Part shown: positions 2,754 through 10,716 of the stretch, piece by piece
Layout of the letters: the number at the start of each line of letters is the position of its first letter
Position numbering within the stretch: the first letter of the stretch is position 1
NCBI GenBank assembly: GCA_019136325.1
Contig: JAGVUJ010000007.1
Location: forward strand, 1 to 10,716
DNA from: Deltaproteobacteria bacterium
Lineage (GTDB): Bacteria > Desulfobacterota > Syntrophia > Syntrophales > Smithellaceae
DNA: 10,716 bases
Direction of reading: 5' to 3'
Notes under the pieces: generated by a model
Database searches by the model: none
The model's input: only the letters and a program-made list of their open reading frames with translations
Told to the model about the DNA's origin: nothing
Position numbers and translations under genes: made by a program

Positions 2754-3236
2754 CTATTCTTTTAAATGGTCCGGCATCAGGGCTTCCGGCACCTGAATGG
2801 CAACGACTTCGCCGGTGGCGCATATCTGGCCGCCGGCAATCAGCCTCGATTCGATAACGACTTTGCGCCTTTTGATCTCCTTGACTTTCCCCCGTATTTC
2901 TATCGGTCCGCCAAGCGGTGTGGGCAAAAGATAGTTTACGTGCAAAGAGGCGGTCAGAAAACGAATCGGCGGCAGGGTATCCATCTCGCGGTTTTCAGAG
3001 CAGTATTTGGCCGCCGCCGCTGTGCCAGTGGAATGGCAATCGATCAGCGACGCAATCAGACCGCCGTAAGCCATTCCGGGAATAGCCATGTAGCGGGGAT
3101 CCGGTTGATAAACACAGACGGATTCTTCTCCGTCCCAGTAGCTTTTGATTTGCAGACCGTGTTCGTTGAGGCGACCGCAGCCGTAACAGTGGCTTAAATC
3201 GTCGGGATAGTAGTCCTGAAACGCTTTTTGCTTCAT
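2754..3236 (-). CDS. hotdog-fold thioesterase, PaaI family
   Basis: This 160-residue protein probably hydrolyses an acyl-CoA or other thioester. The N-terminal CYGCG (Cys17, Cys20) followed by NEHGL is typical of PaaI-like hotdog proteins. GMAYGG (54-59) precedes the long hotdog helix, which contains Asp66 and His68, candidates for the catalytic acid/base region. The start at 3236 has AAGGGG (3242-3247) five bases upstream; a TTG at 3257 would lie upstream of that Shine-Dalgarno and is rejected. The gene begins 33 bases after the stop of the selenoprotein and ends 55 bases before the MetV-like gene, so it may be read with both. Substrate is unknown. A diverged fragment of a relative lies at 657-754. 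Confidence 0.85.
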   Translation of the reverse strand: MKQKAFQDYYPDDLSHCYGCGRLNEHGLQIKSYWDGEESVCVYQPDPRYMAIPGMAYGGLIASLIDCHSTGTAAAAKYCSENREMDTLPPIRFLTASLHVNYLLPTPLGGPIEIRGKVKEIKRRKVVIESRLIAGGQICATGEVVAIQVPEALMPDHLKE

Positions 3237-3269: not shown

Positions 3270-3524
3270 TTACAATCGAGAGGACAGAAAAGCATGCATT
3301 TTTTGCGCGTCTGTTGCAATATCAACATGCACGTGTTCATTGTCAAAGATGACATTGGTTGAACTTCTGAAATTATACGGCAATGCCTCGACGGCATCGA
3401 TTGTGTAAATTTTTACATCCAGAATGGTCTCAAATTTTGTTTTCATCTCTTCAGCTACACCTATAGCCTTCTTGCAGCTTATTCAGCCCGGATTTCCGCT
3501 ATGAAAAACCAGTAATGTCTTCAT
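3270..3524 (-). CDS. candidate thioredoxin-like selenoprotein with a UxxC motif
   Basis: This 84-residue reading frame is interrupted only by TGA at codon 14 (3485-3483). With TGA read as selenocysteine it gives SGNPGUISCKKA, a U-x-x-C redox motif placed after the first strand (TLLVFHS) exactly as CxxC is in thioredoxins. A helix, a second strand (DVKIYTID), and a strand pair around STNVIFDNEHV follow, a layout like the small thioredoxin/glutaredoxin-like proteins of about 80 residues. The usual cis-Pro before the third strand is not apparent. The ATG at 3524 has AAAGGGG (3531-3537) six bases upstream and starts 16 bases after the MBL gene, so they are probably co-transcribed. A hairpin with GGU in its loop follows the TGA at a suitable distance. 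The alternative is a nonsense mutation replacing a Cys codon, but the exact motif position and the 70 open codons downstream favour Sec. NCBI's 'thioredoxin-like (seleno)protein' families, such as SaoT, are worth comparing; I do not assign one. Confidence 0.75.
3453..3468 (-). promoter_or_regulatory. candidate bacterial SECIS hairpin
   Basis: In the mRNA, GGCUA (3468-3464) can pair with UAGCU (3457-3453), including one G-U pair, closing a UAGGUG loop (3463-3458). The loop begins 20 nucleotides after the UGA and holds GGU. In E. coli fdhF the SECIS loop also carries GGU about 20 nucleotides after its UGA, and SelB recognises it. The stem is short (5 bp) and no clear lower-stem extension is seen, so the structure is plausible but not proven. 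An alternative pairing, AGCUGC with GUAGCU, also forms. Confidence 0.5.
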
Positions 3525-3540
3525 GATAGTCCCCTTTATG

Positions 3541-4491
3541 TTAATTAAATGTCAATTTTGTTCCGGCCATATTCAAAATAAATTGTTCGGGCATTTGCTT
3601 TTCCATCTCCATAATGGCTTTGCGTCCCGTGCAGTGTGTCGGAATGATATAAGCCGGGTTGATTTTCTTGAATTCCTGCGTGGTGCGATCAATAATCGGT
3701 TCAAAAAACGGCCCGGATAGATGGAATCCGCCCATCACTGCGTGAATTTTATTAATACCGGTAACTTTCATCGCGTGATGAACCGTATTAATGATTCCGG
3801 AATGCGCACAACCGGAAAGGATAATCAACCCTTTGTTTTTCAGATTCATGACAATAGAGGTGTCGTCTTCGATGGCATCCCAAACTTCCTTTCCGTCTTG
3901 CTGGCAATGAGGAAGCGGCCATCCCGTTTCGAAATCCGTGCTACGGGGAATTTCGCCCAGAAAAAGAATCGTATCTTCCAGTAAAAGATATGGTTTTTCA
4001 GTTTCCACCACGGTGAGACCCGCGGCTTTAACCATTTCCCGCGTCAATTCCGGAAAATTGATTTTTAATTCCTCTCCGAATTTGAGATAACGCGGCGATT
4101 TAAACGCGGACGGATGCACGGCGAAAGGGATATTCTTTTTACCGGTCATGGTGACGAGTTTTGCCATGCCACCCGTATGGTCACTATGTCCGTGGGAAAG
4201 AGCGGCTGCCTCGACCTGTGTCATATCAACGTTAAGCGTTTCCGCATTTTGCGCCGCACCGTTTTCCGAAAAACCGAAGTCAAGCAGCAGCGTATGCGTT
4301 TTGTTTCCGAGAGTTGTTTGGACGAGTGCGGAAAAACCGTGCTCAGCCAACACGGAAGCCCGGATTTCTCCTTCTTTTAAAGGATTGGCTCGCGTGACAA
4401 CAGCGTTGCTGTCCATCGCGGTAATTTCAATGTAGTTATCCTGTAATGTCAGGATTTCAACCCTATCAACTGCTTTTAAAGCTGTTGTCAT
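3541..4491 (-). CDS. MBL-fold metallo-hydrolase (COG1237-like)
   Basis: This is a 316-residue metallo-beta-lactamase-fold protein. The metal-binding motif HGHSDH occupies residues 100-105. Further likely ligands are GCAH (227-230), GGFH (254-257) and PTHC (284-287), an arrangement seen in the family often annotated as metal-dependent hydrolase or 7,8-dihydropterin-methyl-aminobenzene phosphate synthase-like. The first ~60 residues form an N-terminal strand region before DFGFSENG (71-78). AAAGGAGG (4501-4508) lies nine bases before the ATG. The gene follows the NifX-family gene by 20 bases and is followed after 16 bases by the thioredoxin-like selenoprotein, so redox control or sulfur chemistry on a shared substrate is possible. 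The true substrate cannot be read from the sequence; cytoplasmic, with no signal peptide seen. Confidence 0.85.
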   Translation of the reverse strand: MTTALKAVDRVEILTLQDNYIEITAMDSNAVVTRANPLKEGEIRASVLAEHGFSALVQTTLGNKTHTLLLDFGFSENGAAQNAETLNVDMTQVEAAALSHGHSDHTGGMAKLVTMTGKKNIPFAVHPSAFKSPRYLKFGEELKINFPELTREMVKAAGLTVVETEKPYLLLEDTILFLGEIPRSTDFETGWPLPHCQQDGKEVWDAIEDDTSIVMNLKNKGLIILSGCAHSGIINTVHHAMKVTGINKIHAVMGGFHLSGPFFEPIIDRTTQEFKKINPAYIIPTHCTGRKAIMEMEKQMPEQFILNMAGTKLTFN

Positions 4492-4511: not shown

Positions 4512-4850
4512 TTAGTGATCGCAGAGATTGTCTCCGACTTGCAATGAACCGGCAAAAAAATCCGTAATCAGTTTTTCCGGTGTTTCGACCGGAGCACCGA
4601 CTACGACCTGAATGCCCTGCTCGGCAAACAACTGTTGGGCTCGTTGACCCATGCCGCCGGCAATAATCATATTAGCACCTTGTTTGGCCAGCCATGGCGG
4701 CAAAAGTCCCGGTTCATGAGGCGGCGCGGCAATGTCTTCACGTTTGATGATTTTTTTAGTTTGGTCTTCGATTTCGATGATAGCAAAACTCGCGCAGTGA
4801 CCGAAATGCGCTGTAAGTTTTCCTTCGGCTAACGGTATGGCTATTTTCAT
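4512..4850 (-). CDS. NifX/NifB-family (dinitrogenase Fe-Mo cofactor-type, ORP-like) protein
   Basis: This 112-residue protein belongs to the fold that binds iron-molybdenum cofactor precursors in NifX/NifY and the Mo-Cu cluster in the Desulfovibrio orange protein. It opens MKIAIPLAEGKLTAHFGHC, the characteristic first strand and H-F-G-H-C turn, continues with ANMIIAGGMGQRA, and ends in NLCDH, a Cys-His tail common in the stand-alone group. It has no nif structural genes near it. GGAG (4859-4862), partly overlapping the Mrp gene's downstream end, lies eight bases before the ATG, so translation is probably coupled to Mrp. Next to Mrp and MinD-type ATPases, a role as small carrier for a metal-sulfur cofactor is likely; the metal is unknown. 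Confidence 0.85.
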   Translation of the reverse strand: MKIAIPLAEGKLTAHFGHCASFAIIEIEDQTKKIIKREDIAAPPHEPGLLPPWLAKQGANMIIAGGMGQRAQQLFAEQGIQVVVGAPVETPEKLITDFFAGSLQVGDNLCDH

Positions 4851-4862
4851 GATTCATTCTCC

Positions 4863-5759
4863 TTATGAGTTTAATATTTTTGTCTTATCCAAGTCTTTTG
4901 TAATTTCATCAATGATTTTTTGCATGATTTCCCCTGTGGGCGTTTTCGATGAATGATAAATAAAAACCTTACCCGAGTCGCCGGACTGTGCGATTGCCGG
5001 ATCCATGGGAATAGCGCCAAGAAAAGGCACATTCATGTCCGTTGAGATTTTCTTGCCGCCGCCGGTGGGCAGAATCTGTGTAATTTCACCGCATTTCGGA
5101 CACGCAAAACCGCTCATGTTTTCGATGACGCCGACCACCGGTACGTCAAGACGCTTGCAAAAGCTGATAGATTTGCGCACGTCCACTGCGGCGACTTTCT
5201 GCGGTGTGGTGACAATAATTGCGCCGTCCAGCGGCTGAATCAACTGGCACAACGACAGGGGTTCATCACCTGTGCCCGGAGGAGCGTCAACAATTAAGTA
5301 ATCCAGATCGCCCCAATGCACATCCGTCAGGAATTGTTTGATAACACCCATTTTCATCGGACCGCGCCAGATGACAGCGTCATCGGGATTCTGCAACAAA
5401 AACCCCAGAGACATTATTTTCAGGCCACCGAATTCAACCGGAAACAATCCGTCGGGGCCGCCTTTGAGAGTTTCATTTTCCAGTCCCAGCATGGTGGGTA
5501 CGCTGGGACCGTGAATATCCACGTCCAGCAAACCGACTCGCAGACCGTTTAATGCCAGCGCGGTGGCCAGATTGACCGCAACGGTGCTTTTACCGACGCC
5601 GCCCTTGCCGGAAAGCACGACGATTTTTTTCTGAATGCGGCAGAGCGTCGCCTGCAATTTGCGGCGATCAGCGTATTCTTCAGGACTTTCATCCTTTTTC
5701 TGTTTTTTAGCCGCGCAGTCGGAATCGCCGCACGTATCACATGTTTTTTTTTCTTCCAC
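4863..5759 (-). CDS. Mrp/Nbp35-family P-loop ATPase, Fe-S cluster carrier
   Basis: This is a cytoplasmic ATPase that binds and transfers 4Fe-4S clusters as a dimer (ApbC/Mrp/Nbp35 family). Numbered from the ATG at 5774, it has an N-terminal C-x2-C-x4-C cluster (Cys12, 15, 20), reminiscent of the Nbp35 N-terminal ferredoxin-like motif. It then has the deviant Walker A GKGGVGKST (56-64), DVDIHGPS (83-90), DAPPGTGD (162-169), and the CPKC bridging-cluster motif (224-227). The GTG at 5759 is preferred as the start: GGAGG (5772-5768) lies eight bases before it, whereas the ATG at 5774 overlaps that Shine-Dalgarno and has only AT-rich sequence upstream. The GTG start gives 298 residues and keeps the N-terminal cysteines. 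It sits between the IscU-like scaffold and the NifX-family gene, consistent with loading clusters onto one of them. Confidence 0.9.
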   Translation of the reverse strand: MEEKKTCDTCGDSDCAAKKQKKDESPEEYADRRKLQATLCRIQKKIVVLSGKGGVGKSTVAVNLATALALNGLRVGLLDVDIHGPSVPTMLGLENETLKGGPDGLFPVEFGGLKIMSLGFLLQNPDDAVIWRGPMKMGVIKQFLTDVHWGDLDYLIVDAPPGTGDEPLSLCQLIQPLDGAIIVTTPQKVAAVDVRKSISFCKRLDVPVVGVIENMSGFACPKCGEITQILPTGGGKKISTDMNVPFLGAIPMDPAIAQSGDSGKVFIYHSSKTPTGEIMQKIIDEITKDLDKTKILNS

Positions 5760-5767
5760 TATTATAT

Positions 5768-5772
5768 CCTCC
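5768..5772 (-). promoter_or_regulatory. Shine-Dalgarno that decides the Mrp start
   Basis: GGAGG on the minus strand lies eight bases before a GTG (5759-5757) and overlaps the alternative ATG (5774-5772). The ribosome therefore most likely starts at GTG. The upstream ATG has no purine-rich site before it. Confidence 0.6.
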
Positions 5773-5779
5773 ATTTATT

Positions 5780-6163
5780 TTATTGATTAAGATAATCTTC
5801 ACAAGCCGCTTTTAACGTATTGGTCGCCAGAAGCGCGCAGTGTTCGTGATCTTCGGGAAGTCCGTCAAGAACATTGAGAACATCCTTTTGACTTATTGCT
5901 TGGGCTTCCTCAATCGATTTTCCCTCGGCCATACAGGTTGTCATGCTGCCGCAGGCACGCGAAGGATCACAGCCATCGGTGATAAAAGAGACTTTCCTGA
6001 TTTTGCCTTCTTCAACCAGAATCCAGAACTCCATGGTGTCGCCGCAGGGTCCGGTAATTCTCGCGTGTCCGCTAAAAGAATCCATCGGTCCCATATTATG
6101 AGGCGAATCGGCATGTTTTTTTGCCGTGGCATAAGTTTCGTCCAGATTTACTAACTCACTCAT
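5780..6163 (-). CDS. IscU/NifU-N-like iron-sulfur scaffold protein
   Basis: This 127-residue protein resembles the N-terminal scaffold domain of NifU/IscU, on which Fe-S clusters are built. The three scaffold cysteines can be placed: Cys40 in GPCGDTM, Cys65 or Cys71 in GCDPSRACGSM, and Cys109 in EHCALLATNTLKAA. It lacks NifU's central ferredoxin and C-terminal domains, and no cysteine desulfurase is visible nearby. It starts 11 bases after the MinD-ferredoxin stop, with AAGG (6173-6170) six bases before the ATG, and ends just before the Mrp gene. Its wording departs from classic IscU, as in the sets of archaeal and anaerobe 'NifU-like' proteins tied to MinD and Mrp ATPases. It probably supplies clusters to them. 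Confidence 0.8.
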   Translation of the reverse strand: MSELVNLDETYATAKKHADSPHNMGPMDSFSGHARITGPCGDTMEFWILVEEGKIRKVSFITDGCDPSRACGSMTTCMAEGKSIEEAQAISQKDVLNVLDGLPEDHEHCALLATNTLKAACEDYLNQ

Positions 6164-6174
6164 TATTTACCTTC

Positions 6175-7056
6175 TTATACCTCCCGAAGATTAAGATTTT
6201 TCCAGAGTTGTTGAATATCATCGCCGCTTGGGGCATCGATTTCAACAACCGATTTTTTCTGTATTTGCGCCTGTGTGACGGCATTGTCGTAGCGAATCCG
6301 TCCGGCAATTCGCGCGCCTAATCCCGCAGCATTTTCTTCAATACGCTCAGTCATGTCGGGATTGATATCCCATTTGTTGACGCACACAGCTGCTGGAATT
6401 TGAAAATGACGGGTAAGGCCCAGCACCCTTTCCAGATCGTGTTCGCCCGAAACTGTTGGTTCCGTGACCACCAGAACCTGCGAAGCACCGGTCACCGAGG
6501 CAATAACCGGACAGCCGATGCCGGGAGGACCATCCACAATAATCAATTCACAATTTTCTTTTTCCGCGATGGCGCGGGCTTCCCGCCGCACGGTGGAAAC
6601 CAATTTGCCGGAGTTTTCAGCGGCCACCCCCAGACGCGCGTGAACCATCGGCCCCAGACGCGTATCGGAGACAAACCACTTGCCGCAGTTGCAATCCGGG
6701 AAATCAATCGCTTTTTCCGGGCACATTTCCACGCAAACTTTGCAGCCCTCACAGGCAACGGGATCCACGGCAAATAAAAGCTCTCCCTGAAAATTCTGCT
6801 TACTGTGAATGGCATTAAAGCGGCAAACGTCTTTACAAATACCGCAGCTGATACAGTCGGTTTGACGGATAACAGCTTCATGACCGCTGATAAATTCGTG
6901 TTCTTCCTTGATTTGCGGTGTCAGGACTAAATGCAAGTCGGCCGCATCCACATCGCAATCACAGATCACCGAACGCTTTGCCAGCGCTACCAGTGATGCC
7001 GTAACGCTTGTTTTCCCCGTACCTCCTTTTCCGCTGATTATTACCAATTCCTTCAT
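6175..7056 (-). CDS. MinD-superfamily ATPase with inserted ferredoxin domain (first copy)
   Basis: This 293-residue protein is a COG1149-type ATPase in which two 4Fe-4S motifs are inserted into a MinD/ParA-like P-loop fold. The deviant Walker A GKGGTGKTS spans 9-17. CDCDVDAADLH (32-42) follows, then the clusters: Cys68/71/74/78 and Cys102/105/108/112 followed by Pro. Walker B is in IIVDGPPGIGCPV, and TEPTVSGEHDL is the usual downstream motif. The ATG at 7056 (MKELVIISGKGG) fits family starts and has GAGG (7070-7067) ten bases upstream. ATGs at 7062 and 7065 are closer to that site; 7065 would give an ATGA overlap with the methyltransferase stop. It is paralogous to the ATPase at 8923-9765. 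Paired copies of this type occur in ORP operons of Desulfovibrio, and here it probably couples ATP hydrolysis to cluster or electron transfer onto the scaffold or NifX-type protein. Confidence 0.85.
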   Translation of the reverse strand: MKELVIISGKGGTGKTSVTASLVALAKRSVICDCDVDAADLHLVLTPQIKEEHEFISGHEAVIRQTDCISCGICKDVCRFNAIHSKQNFQGELLFAVDPVACEGCKVCVEMCPEKAIDFPDCNCGKWFVSDTRLGPMVHARLGVAAENSGKLVSTVRREARAIAEKENCELIIVDGPPGIGCPVIASVTGASQVLVVTEPTVSGEHDLERVLGLTRHFQIPAAVCVNKWDINPDMTERIEENAAGLGARIAGRIRYDNAVTQAQIQKKSVVEIDAPSGDDIQQLWKNLNLREV

Positions 7057-7061
7057 GGCCA

Positions 7062-7691
7062 TCATTCCTCAATATCCGGCGATAGGTTTGTTCTGCCGGC
7101 CACAAGCATGTCCTGCAAGTCGCTTTGATGTTCTCTTACAGTGAATCCGCGTTCGACCAGGATGGTCTTCATCTCCGCCAGGGTGCCGCCGCTGACGTCG
7201 TGGTATCTTCCTTCGCGCTCGTGAATCCTGTCCAATATCGCGAGTCCCTTTTCGTTAAAATCGCTCAACACGATTTTACCATCCGGCGATAGAAGTCGTG
7301 TGAATTCATCACAGACCTTGCGGATAGAGGAAAGGTGATGAATCATGTTCACGGCGAAAATCACATCAAAAAAACCGTCGTTACAGGGGATGGATTCAAC
7401 ATCGGCGATGAGGAAAGTCACCTGCGACTGAAATCCATAATACATCAGGTTGAGCAGGGCGAATCTCTGTTCCGCTACGGAAATATCCAAAGAGAAAAAT
7501 TTATATCCTGCCTGCGCCAGAGCAAGCGTGAAATAGCCCTTGCCCGTACCGGCTTCCAGAATGTTGCCCGCTACAGGCAACGATTTTTCAATGATAAAAG
7601 AACGCTCCAGATCGATATTGTATCCGAATGTCCGGTAAAGCGCGACACGTTTCTGATATTTTATGTGATTTTCGATAATGTCCTTTTGCAT
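7062..7691 (-). CDS. class I SAM-dependent methyltransferase
   Basis: This 209-residue protein has a Rossmann-fold methyltransferase core: the SAM-binding motif I ILEAGTGKGYFTLALA near residues 44-59, an acidic residue after the second strand (SLDIS), IADVES, DVIFAVNMIHHL as motif IV/post-motif, and LSPDGKIVLSDF. This is the Methyltransf_11/25 type; substrate is unknown and may be small molecule, protein or RNA. The ATG at 7691 has AAGGA (7698-7702) six bases upstream; a TTG at 7697 is less likely. It lies 15 bases after the radical SAM gene and its stop overlaps the region of the next gene's starts, so it is translated in coupling with both. Confidence 0.85.
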   Translation of the reverse strand: MQKDIIENHIKYQKRVALYRTFGYNIDLERSFIIEKSLPVAGNILEAGTGKGYFTLALAQAGYKFFSLDISVAEQRFALLNLMYYGFQSQVTFLIADVESIPCNDGFFDVIFAVNMIHHLSSIRKVCDEFTRLLSPDGKIVLSDFNEKGLAILDRIHEREGRYHDVSGGTLAEMKTILVERGFTVREHQSDLQDMLVAGRTNLSPDIEE

Positions 7692-8922: not shown

Positions 8923-9765
8923 TTATCCTTTCTTTTTCGAATTGGCAATTTTCTCTAAAAGATTTTCAAAACGTTCCCGGTATTGAGGCAGGGCATCCAC
9001 CATCAGAATTCCCCGTGAATAATTTTCCGCAATTTGCCGGTCATCGGGAATTTCCATCAGAATGGGAACGTTTTCCTTTCGACAGAATTCATGAACGCGG
9101 TTATCACCGCTCCCCATTCGATTGACAAGAACGCCAAAGGGCAGATTCAACTCTCTGACCATATCCACCGCCAGCGATAAATCGTGCAAACCGAAAGGCG
9201 TCGGTTCCGTTACCAGTAGAACAAAATCCGAATCCCTGATCGCGGCAATAACCGGACAGGATGTGCCGGGCGGGGCATCTAAAATAGCCGGAGCATCAAC
9301 CGGCAACGTATTTTTTACGGCGCGGATAAGCGGTGGAGCCAACGCCACGCCAACATTTAGTTTTCCCGTAACCAGCGTGATATTCTCCGTGCGCGACGTT
9401 TCAACAACACCGATACGCCTGTTTTTTTCACTGATGGCCTTAGTGGGACAGACCAGCGTGCACCCGCCGCAGCCGTGGCACATTTCCGGAAACACAAGCG
9501 GCGTTGTTCCAAAAGTGACAATGGCGGAGAACTGGCAGATTTTCGCACACTCACCGCAGCCGTTGCAGAGTTCTTCATTGACATCCGGCACGGGGAGGCC
9601 GATGGTTTTTTCAGAATGCCCCGATGTTTTTAAAAATAAGTGGGCATTGGGTTCTTCCACGTCGCAGTCCGCAAGACACACATCTCTCTTAAAGACACGC
9701 GCCAGATTGACGCTGACCGTGGTTTTTCCGGTCCCTCCTTTTCCTGATGCAACGGCCAGCTTCAT
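8923..9765 (-). CDS. MinD-superfamily ATPase with inserted ferredoxin domain (second copy)
   Basis: This 280-residue protein is of the COG1149 type, like 6175-7056. Walker A GKGGTGKTT (8-16) is followed by DCDVEEPNAH (33-42), the EEPN variant usual in one of the two paired paralogues. Inserted clusters are Cys67/70/73/77 and Cys96/99/102/106 followed by Pro. AILDAPPGTSCPV and TEPTPFGLHDL follow in the expected order. The ATG at 9765 overlaps the upstream stop by ATGA, with AAAGGAG about 11 bases upstream. Its presence beside a second, different MinD-ferredoxin ATPase suggests a heteromeric complex, as proposed for the ORP complex. It may be soluble or peripherally attached, possibly to the adjacent membrane protein. 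Confidence 0.85.
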   Translation of the reverse strand: MKLAVASGKGGTGKTTVSVNLARVFKRDVCLADCDVEEPNAHLFLKTSGHSEKTIGLPVPDVNEELCNGCGECAKICQFSAIVTFGTTPLVFPEMCHGCGGCTLVCPTKAISEKNRRIGVVETSRTENITLVTGKLNVGVALAPPLIRAVKNTLPVDAPAILDAPPGTSCPVIAAIRDSDFVLLVTEPTPFGLHDLSLAVDMVRELNLPFGVLVNRMGSGDNRVHEFCRKENVPILMEIPDDRQIAENYSRGILMVDALPQYRERFENLLEKIANSKKKG

Positions 9766-10459: not shown

Positions 10460-10716
10460 GAACGGTACCCTCGTTTTCCCCTTTTTGCTGCTGTGGATTC
10501 ATCCACCTCATCCTGCCAGCCGTTTTTCCGGATATCATGCAGATCGAATTTTGCCGTATAGGGCTTGATGTCCAAAAGCGGAGTTCCGTCGAGAATGTCA
10601 ATTCCATCCACATAAAGGATATTGTCCTCTATACGGATGAGTTCTACAACGCTAAGCCCAAGAGGATTGGGACGACCCGGCGCGCGTGTGGAAAATATTC
10701 CCCGCTCCACGTCCTG
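10456..10716 (-). CDS. TrmO/TsaA-like protein, C-terminal part
   Basis: The visible 86 residues (plus stop) form the core of the UPF0066/TrmO family, which in E. coli methylates N6-threonylcarbamoyladenosine-37 of tRNA using S-adenosylmethionine. Signature stretches are RGIFSTRAPGRPNPLGLS and VDGIDILDGTPLLDIKPY. The N terminus lies beyond the right edge; sequence right up to 10716 stays in frame (QDVERGIF), so the GTG at 10710 is internal. The end, GKRGYRS, suggests the short single-domain form. Homologues of this family are common in metal-cofactor gene clusters of anaerobes, so the tRNA role is not certain here. It is the first gene seen in this run of minus-strand genes, and the promoter is outside the window. 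Confidence 0.85.
   Translation of the reverse strand, partial: QDVERGIFSTRAPGRPNPLGLSVVELIRIEDNILYVDGIDILDGTPLLDIKPYTAKFDLHDIRKNGWQDEVDESTAAKRGKRGYRS

Follow-up and report, generated by a model that had tools for sequence, protein, structure and literature searches.

The DNA analyzed here, called the window below, is a 10,716-nucleotide (nt) stretch of contig JAGVUJ010000007.1 (assembly GCA_019136325.1) from a Deltaproteobacteria bacterium of the Smithellaceae, and it carries a short gene, tsoX, with an internal TGA codon predicted to be read as selenocysteine (Sec). On the minus strand, from 3524 to 3270, a frame of 84 codons plus a TAA stop contains a single internal stop, the TGA at codon 14, and translates as MKTLLVFHSGNPG-U-ISCKKAIGVAEEMKTKF...FLSSRL-stop. 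An earlier sequence-only reading had proposed an 84-codon frame with a lone TGA at codon 14 within 3270 to 3524, and this is confirmed, on a strand (minus) that it had left unstated. The Shine-Dalgarno sequence it noted was also read, as a Shine-Dalgarno-like AAAGGGGA at 3530 to 3537 (minus strand) upstream of the ATG, with the purine-rich AAAGGGG ending 6 nt ahead of the tsoX start. The gene occupies the gap between a metallo-beta-lactamase (MBL) hydrolase (4491 to 3541) on one side and a thioesterase (ATG at 3236) on the other. Apart from 60 nt, the window is 100% identical to JAGOMJ010000001.1 (locus L001), a contig of a Smithella sp. metagenome-assembled genome (G001), and genome-level tests were run on G001 as a stand-in for the window's own genome.

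Without recoding, gene finders call only 58 residues of this product, from Met27. For example, protein database entry P0003 is 58 amino acids long, is 100% identical to the window, and belongs to a cluster found on 82 contigs, and 12 of the 15 database proteins found begin downstream of the TGA. Tryptophan stands at the Sec position in the other three (P0002, P0005, and P0008), probably because these were called with a genetic code in which TGA means tryptophan.

A profile search assigned the 84-codon product to NCBIfam NF045809, "HSGNPxU motif (seleno)protein TsoX," with 126.1 bits against a cut-off of 52 (E value of 4.7e-37), and the alignment covers residues 3 to 82 of 84 and model positions 2 to 81 of 82. 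The family motif, HSGNPxU followed by xxC, is present as HSGNPG-U-ISC, so the window protein shares the motif, the Sec position, and the UxxC arrangement of the family. The only Pfam match was glutaredoxin-like and under its cut-off. Two other families of small thioredoxin-like proteins with UxxC, the HUIPC motif thioredoxin-like (seleno)protein NF047660 and the ArsC family (seleno)protein NF041106 (both in the accessible part of PMC13188914), resemble TsoX in these respects, but the tsoX product scored 13.7 bits to the first (cut-off of 105) and 15.9 bits to the second (cut-off of 85) and is not a member of either. By sequence comparison, the window gene is thus a further TsoX, of a family already named as NF045809. 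The accessible part of a 2026 review lists TsoX among known or predicted selenoproteins as UxxC and credits it to Haft and Tolstoy 2025, mSystems (PMC13188914 and its reference 64). The gene almost certainly encodes a selenoprotein.

To follow codon 14 (3483 to 3485, minus strand; the U of HSGNPxU) across relatives, 27 distinct TsoX genomes were collected from a phylum search, a family search, and tblastn. The NF045809 profile scored above its cut-off in 21 of the 395 genomes searched across the phylum and in 4 of the 51 searched within the family, G001 among the 4; three genomes (G003, G004, and G005) came from tblastn only and carry no NF045809 score. The motif pattern was loosened to take in divergent TsoX copies, and one locus (L046) was read by hand. 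Of the 27 genomes, 26 had TGA at codon 14 and the remaining one (G300) had TTA; neither TAA nor TAG occurred there. This bears out the conservation of U that the sequence-only reading had asked of homologs. Cys17 (3474 to 3476, minus strand), the UxxC cysteine presumed to act as the resolving thiol, was kept in all 27; the search pattern demanded this cysteine yet cost no genome. The sequence-only reading had also expected Cys-containing relatives at codon 14, and these did not appear: none of the 27 TsoX genomes had a Cys codon there. Matches below the family cut-off (4 of 25 in the phylum search and 6 of 10 in the family search) were excluded from the codon counts, and the eight of these ten weak loci that were read (all except L050 and L087) were CxxC frames with IPT, i.e., thioredoxins. 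A Sec family without a Cys form would be unusual, because Cys homologs are said to exist for nearly all selenoproteins (accessible part of PMC13188914).

Both sides of the TGA behave as coding sequence. In 24 genomes, the amino acids of the HSGNP codons ahead of the TGA were kept in nearly all cases while third bases varied, and the stretch ahead of the TGA is therefore coding. The frame after the TGA is not decayed, decay there being what the sequence-only reading had named as grounds for dropping its proposal. A decayed frame was considered and rejected, as residues before and after the TGA are conserved in relatives; this conservation, together with a score of 126 bits against a curated family of selenoproteins, indicates that the frame is genuine. 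The single TTA copy (L045, 155 to 415) differs at a second site as well, having lost the Thr at the thioredoxin cis-proline position, where it has Ala (SSAAV for SSTNV). Its genome still contains tRNA-Sec and selA, and its copy of the hairpin described below still folds. True loss or functional change appears to be a better explanation of this copy than sequencing error, since it accounts for both the Sec and the Thr changes.

Downstream of the UGA, a bacterial Sec insertion sequence (SECIS)-like hairpin spans 3453 to 3468 (minus strand), with a 6-bp stem and an AGGU loop (3459 to 3462) located 20 nt past the UGA. RNAalifold was applied to aligned sequences from 26 of the 27 genomes, leaving out the TTA copy, and returned a single hairpin with GGCUAU-AGGU-GUAGCC as the commonest stem form. 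Pairing was retained in 96.8% of 156 cells, and in seven cells both partners had changed; five of these seven belong to columns 36-45, a pair formed by two third codon positions. Neither the covariation score nor the share of paired cells was reached by any of 500 shuffles, which do not preserve relatedness among the sequences, and structures slid along the alignment paired at most 53.2% of cells. An earlier covariation count on 22 of the 26 sequences gave the same picture. Of the hairpin codons, ATA was conserved in 15 and GTA in 17 of the 24 genomes compared, and mispaired stem positions occurred in three divergent rows (L033, L041, and L047). According to the accessible part of PMC13188914, a bacterial SECIS has a 3- to 9-nt loop, a 4- to 16-bp stem, a G at loop position 1 or 2, a loop 16 to 37 nt after the UGA, and a minimum free energy of −7.5 kcal/mol or lower. 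With a 4-nt AGGU loop, 6 bp, G at the second position, and 20 nt of spacing, the window hairpin agrees with the loop, stem, and spacing rules.

Besides the limit of the shuffles, the count of double changes, one fused copy, and the energy of the window hairpin speak against this hairpin as a SECIS. Only two pairs have a double change, a number matched by 67 of 500 shuffles, and L047, a fused copy from genome G148, mispairs 3 of 6 stem positions. The window hairpin alone has an energy of −5.0 kcal/mol with a G-U pair at its base, and a 48-nt piece of the window prefers a competing pairing at −7.3 kcal/mol. A 66-nt piece folds at −8.7 kcal/mol into the SECIS-like hairpin plus a second one. Single-sequence folding of the window hairpin gave z scores of 0.44, −1.01, and −0.87, no support on its own, and Rfam at gathering thresholds found no family in the window. 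The candidate SECIS of the sequence-only reading thus holds up in its covariation across 26 sequences and in its loop, stem, and spacing, but is energetically weak in the window, and the alignment supports a covarying SECIS-type structure.

Sec machinery was present in G001, where selA (627 bits), selB (355 bits), selD (376 bits), and tRNA-Sec (77 bits) were all over their cut-offs, answering the check for selA, selB, selC, and selD that the sequence-only reading had proposed. The G001 selD itself contains an in-frame TGA. In the first six TsoX genomes, selB, tRNA-Sec, and selA were each found in 6 of 6 and selD in 5 of 6, with an in-frame TGA in all five selD genes found. Less helpful to the argument is that selA occurs in 355 of 395 phylum-sample genomes, so its co-occurrence with tsoX is necessary but discriminates little, and that it was seen in 20 of the 21 TsoX genomes of that sample, G306 not being among the matches.

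The structure model of TsoX is a confident thioredoxin fold, with a first strand at residues 2 to 8 and a first helix at residues 15 to 30, in agreement with the thioredoxin-like order read from the sequence earlier. The cis-proline is lacking, as had been claimed: in alignments to 1gl8 and 1fb0, Thr56 (3357 to 3359, minus strand) takes its place, and this position is Thr in 26 of 27 genomes. TsoX shares the fold of thioredoxins (PDB 2trx, 1gl8, and others) but has UxxC rather than CxxC, lacks WCGPC, starts at about residue 20 of thioredoxin, and is 11 to 22% identical to them. Because of UxxC and Thr56, TsoX is better said to work like a thioredoxin than to be one.

Genes near tsoX were surveyed with a crude open reading frame (ORF) caller on loci of 1.9 to 20 kb, and for both reasons the counts are lower bounds. 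A tsoA-like gene was near tsoX in 10 of 27 genomes. Among 24 surveyed genomes, tsoY was near tsoX in three (G003, G151, and G361), tsoB was directly downstream in one (G167), and an MbdU-like gene was close by in two (G222 and G306); the accessible part of PMC13188914 gives TsoB the name of a rhodanese/DsbD fusion-like protein. The TsoB search over the 24 genomes was noisy, with matches in all 24 and one over the cut-off. At the loci of three further genomes and of G259, no Tso-type partners were seen. The window locus differs from those with Tso partners: tblastn of 20 kb around its tsoX found no TsoA-, TsoB-, TsoY-, or MbdU-like gene, a search of the G001 genome gave no match to TsoY, and the best TsoB match in G001 had 144 bits against a cut-off of 805. 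A Tso (three selenoprotein) operon, with tsoA, tsoB, and tsoC together, was not encountered at the window, with tsoC unsearched and tsoA searched at the locus only.

Four genomes had a class I methyltransferase by tsoX that is weakly similar to the methyltransferase parts of other selenoproteins (L067, 7236 to 7871, minus strand; L068, 8174 to 8299, plus strand; L065, 8392 to 9009, minus strand; L070, 8851 to 9432, plus strand). The L068 case, in G214, is a 42-residue match or fragment only, and a weak fifth methyltransferase match was found in G148.

A possible electron donor is indicated by G148, in which a divergent, TGA-bearing TsoX and a thioredoxin reductase form one continuous fused frame (L071, 6588 to 7811), with 384 bits to TIGR01292 and 94.5 bits to NF045809. 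This fusion points to the kind of protein that would reduce TsoX. In G377, a 161-residue frame upstream of tsoX aligns to thioredoxin reductase over positions 1 to 133 only, out of 300.

In the family of the window, a different gene order recurs. Three genomes (G001, G415, and G401) share the order MBL hydrolase, TsoX, thioesterase, and a coenzyme A (CoA)-disulfide-reductase/rhodanese protein, with two other genes between the last two in the Smithella locus. Identities in G415 are 84% over 218 residues for the MBL protein (contig end), 69% for TsoX, 88% for the thioesterase, and 93% over 164 residues for the reductase; in G401 they are 58%, 62%, 78%, and 83%, respectively. The G401 locus also has a methyltransferase gene after the MBL gene, a SLAC1 gene after the thioesterase, and an orange-protein (ORP)-like gene ahead of MBL and TsoX. 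NADH-dependent persulfide reductases are thought to join CoA-disulfide-reductase-like and rhodanese domains. In G259, found in the phylum sample only, an MBL gene, NifU, and TrmO are near tsoX. By tblastn, ORP-like genes were close to tsoX in two genomes only, G001 and G401, and NifU-like genes likewise in two only, G001 and G259. Two results sit poorly with a fixed partnership: G406, the last of the four TsoX genomes in the family, has none of the block on its 6.1-kb contig, and the gene company of tsoX differs widely among genomes. Sulfane-sulfur or thiol chemistry may be the thread common to these companies.

Within the window, the neighbors of tsoX are full-length open frames in table 11, and those named here up to position 6163 lie on the minus strand. 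Next downstream is the hotdog-fold (4HBT) thioesterase (2754 to 3236; PF03061), and at the window edge is the N-terminal part of the CoA-disulfide-reductase-like flavoprotein with a C-terminal rhodanese (1 to 501), complete at L001, 13024 to 14724. Upstream, the placement of tsoX after an MBL hydrolase in an Fe-S assembly train, as described earlier, is upheld: the MBL-fold hydrolase (3541 to 4491; PF00753) is nearest, and farther upstream lie a Nitro_FeMo-Co (ORP-like) gene (4512 to 4850), an Mrp/NBP35 P-loop Fe-S carrier (4863 to 5774), and a NifU/IscU-like Fe-S scaffold (5780 to 6163; PF01592). MinD-type ATPases with ferredoxin motifs are found at 6175 to 7065 (by Pfam) and 8923 to 9765 (by eye). 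The ORP-like product is similar to the C-terminal domain of MrpORP (NF041136 positions 265 to 364, 131.7 bits, under the cut-off of 450), and the Mrp product to its N-terminal domain (positions 2 to 256, 383.9 bits, also below the cut-off). The group recalls the ORP complex with MrpORP of Desulfovibrio vulgaris as described in the accessible part of PMC6345978, in that both MrpORP domains are present as neighboring genes and the MinD-type ATPases recall Orp3 and Orp4. It differs in that MrpORP is one protein in Desulfovibrio but two genes in the window, each under the NF041136 cut-off, and no selenoprotein is mentioned for the Desulfovibrio complex in that part of the source.

Three other explanations of the locus were weighed. 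Translation could begin solely at Met27, yielding 58 residues and leaving the first 13 codons and the TGA as a decayed or regulatory leader. Gene finders call this very product (P0003, with its cluster on 82 contigs), and most database proteins likewise begin after the TGA. However, the conservation of HSGNP with changing third bases, the loss of the first strand and most of the first helix of the confident model that such a start would entail, and the near-constant TGA at codon 14 (26 of 27 genomes), with neither of the other two stop codons ever in its place, leave this explanation very improbable. The UGA could instead be read as tryptophan, as in a code 4-like system, and the three database proteins with W at this position fit that idea. 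Its probability is negligible given that neighboring genes are open at full length in table 11, that both the Sec machinery and a covarying SECIS-like hairpin were found, and that a redox UxxC motif suits Sec, not tryptophan.

A third explanation accepts the selenoprotein but makes it a noncatalytic Sec/Cys carrier or sensor of metal or selenium serving the adjacent Fe-S/ORP train. In the window, tsoX is grouped with NifU, Mrp, an ORP-like protein, and MinD-type ATPases, an ORP-like gene is ahead of MBL and TsoX in G401 as well, and the Thr replacing cis-Pro weakens the analogy to thioredoxin. Such a role is nonetheless unlikely, because ORP-like and NifU-like genes are each near tsoX in just two genomes versus 10 of 27 for tsoA-like genes, and the fusion to thioredoxin reductase indicates redox turnover.

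The best explanation, which we consider likely, is that tsoX encodes an 84-residue thioredoxin-fold Sec redoxin recycled by a flavin disulfide reductase. The ribosome would insert Sec at codon 14, because a covarying hairpin follows the UGA and SelA, SelB, SelD, and tRNA-Sec are encoded in the matching genome. By fold and motif, Sec14 would be an exposed nucleophile and Cys17 the resolving thiol, and catalysis would pass through a selenenylsulfide (Se14-S17) requiring re-reduction. Gene company and the one fusion suggest that a flavin disulfide reductase supplies the electrons. In one relative this would be the fused thioredoxin reductase, and in this Smithella lineage it may be the CoA-disulfide-reductase/rhodanese protein. 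Any substrate is a guess, with persulfides, disulfides, and sulfur species bound as thioesters as candidates. Judged from its sequence, TsoX probably performs thiol/selenol redox catalysis, and the proposal of a selenoprotein with a redox U-x-x-C site is supported by the family match, codon 14, the hairpin, and the Sec genes. The CoA-disulfide-reductase/rhodanese protein as its partner is a tentative suggestion. More doubtful is a joint reading in which TsoX is obligately selenium dependent, with no Cys form and a needed Thr replacing cis-Pro, and in which TsoX of Smithella relatives has left the Tso system and acts with the CoA-disulfide-reductase/rhodanese, MBL, and thioesterase proteins as a Se-dependent persulfide or CoA-thiol reductase.

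Hairpin covariation, codon 14 in 27 genomes, and Sec genes provide independent support for a selenoprotein that gene finders shorten to 58 residues. The uncharacterized TsoX also gains three handles: the thioredoxin reductase fusion, a set of neighbors outside the Tso system that three genomes of a single family share, and a copy with joint loss of Sec and Thr. The fusion, the non-Tso company, and the linked loss were not encountered in the accessible literature on TsoX, and they are worth following, as is the lack of a Cys form in 27 genomes.

Two further observations concern L001. An EncB-family encapsulin-type ferritin-like cargo gene (14834 to 15148) lies directly past the CoA-disulfide-reductase/rhodanese gene. 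The 60 nt missing from the window relative to this contig fall at 10350/10351 (L001, 3115 to 3174). Read by eye, they include a likely ribosome site together with an ATG, and the ORF at 10613 to 9762 is open with or without them.
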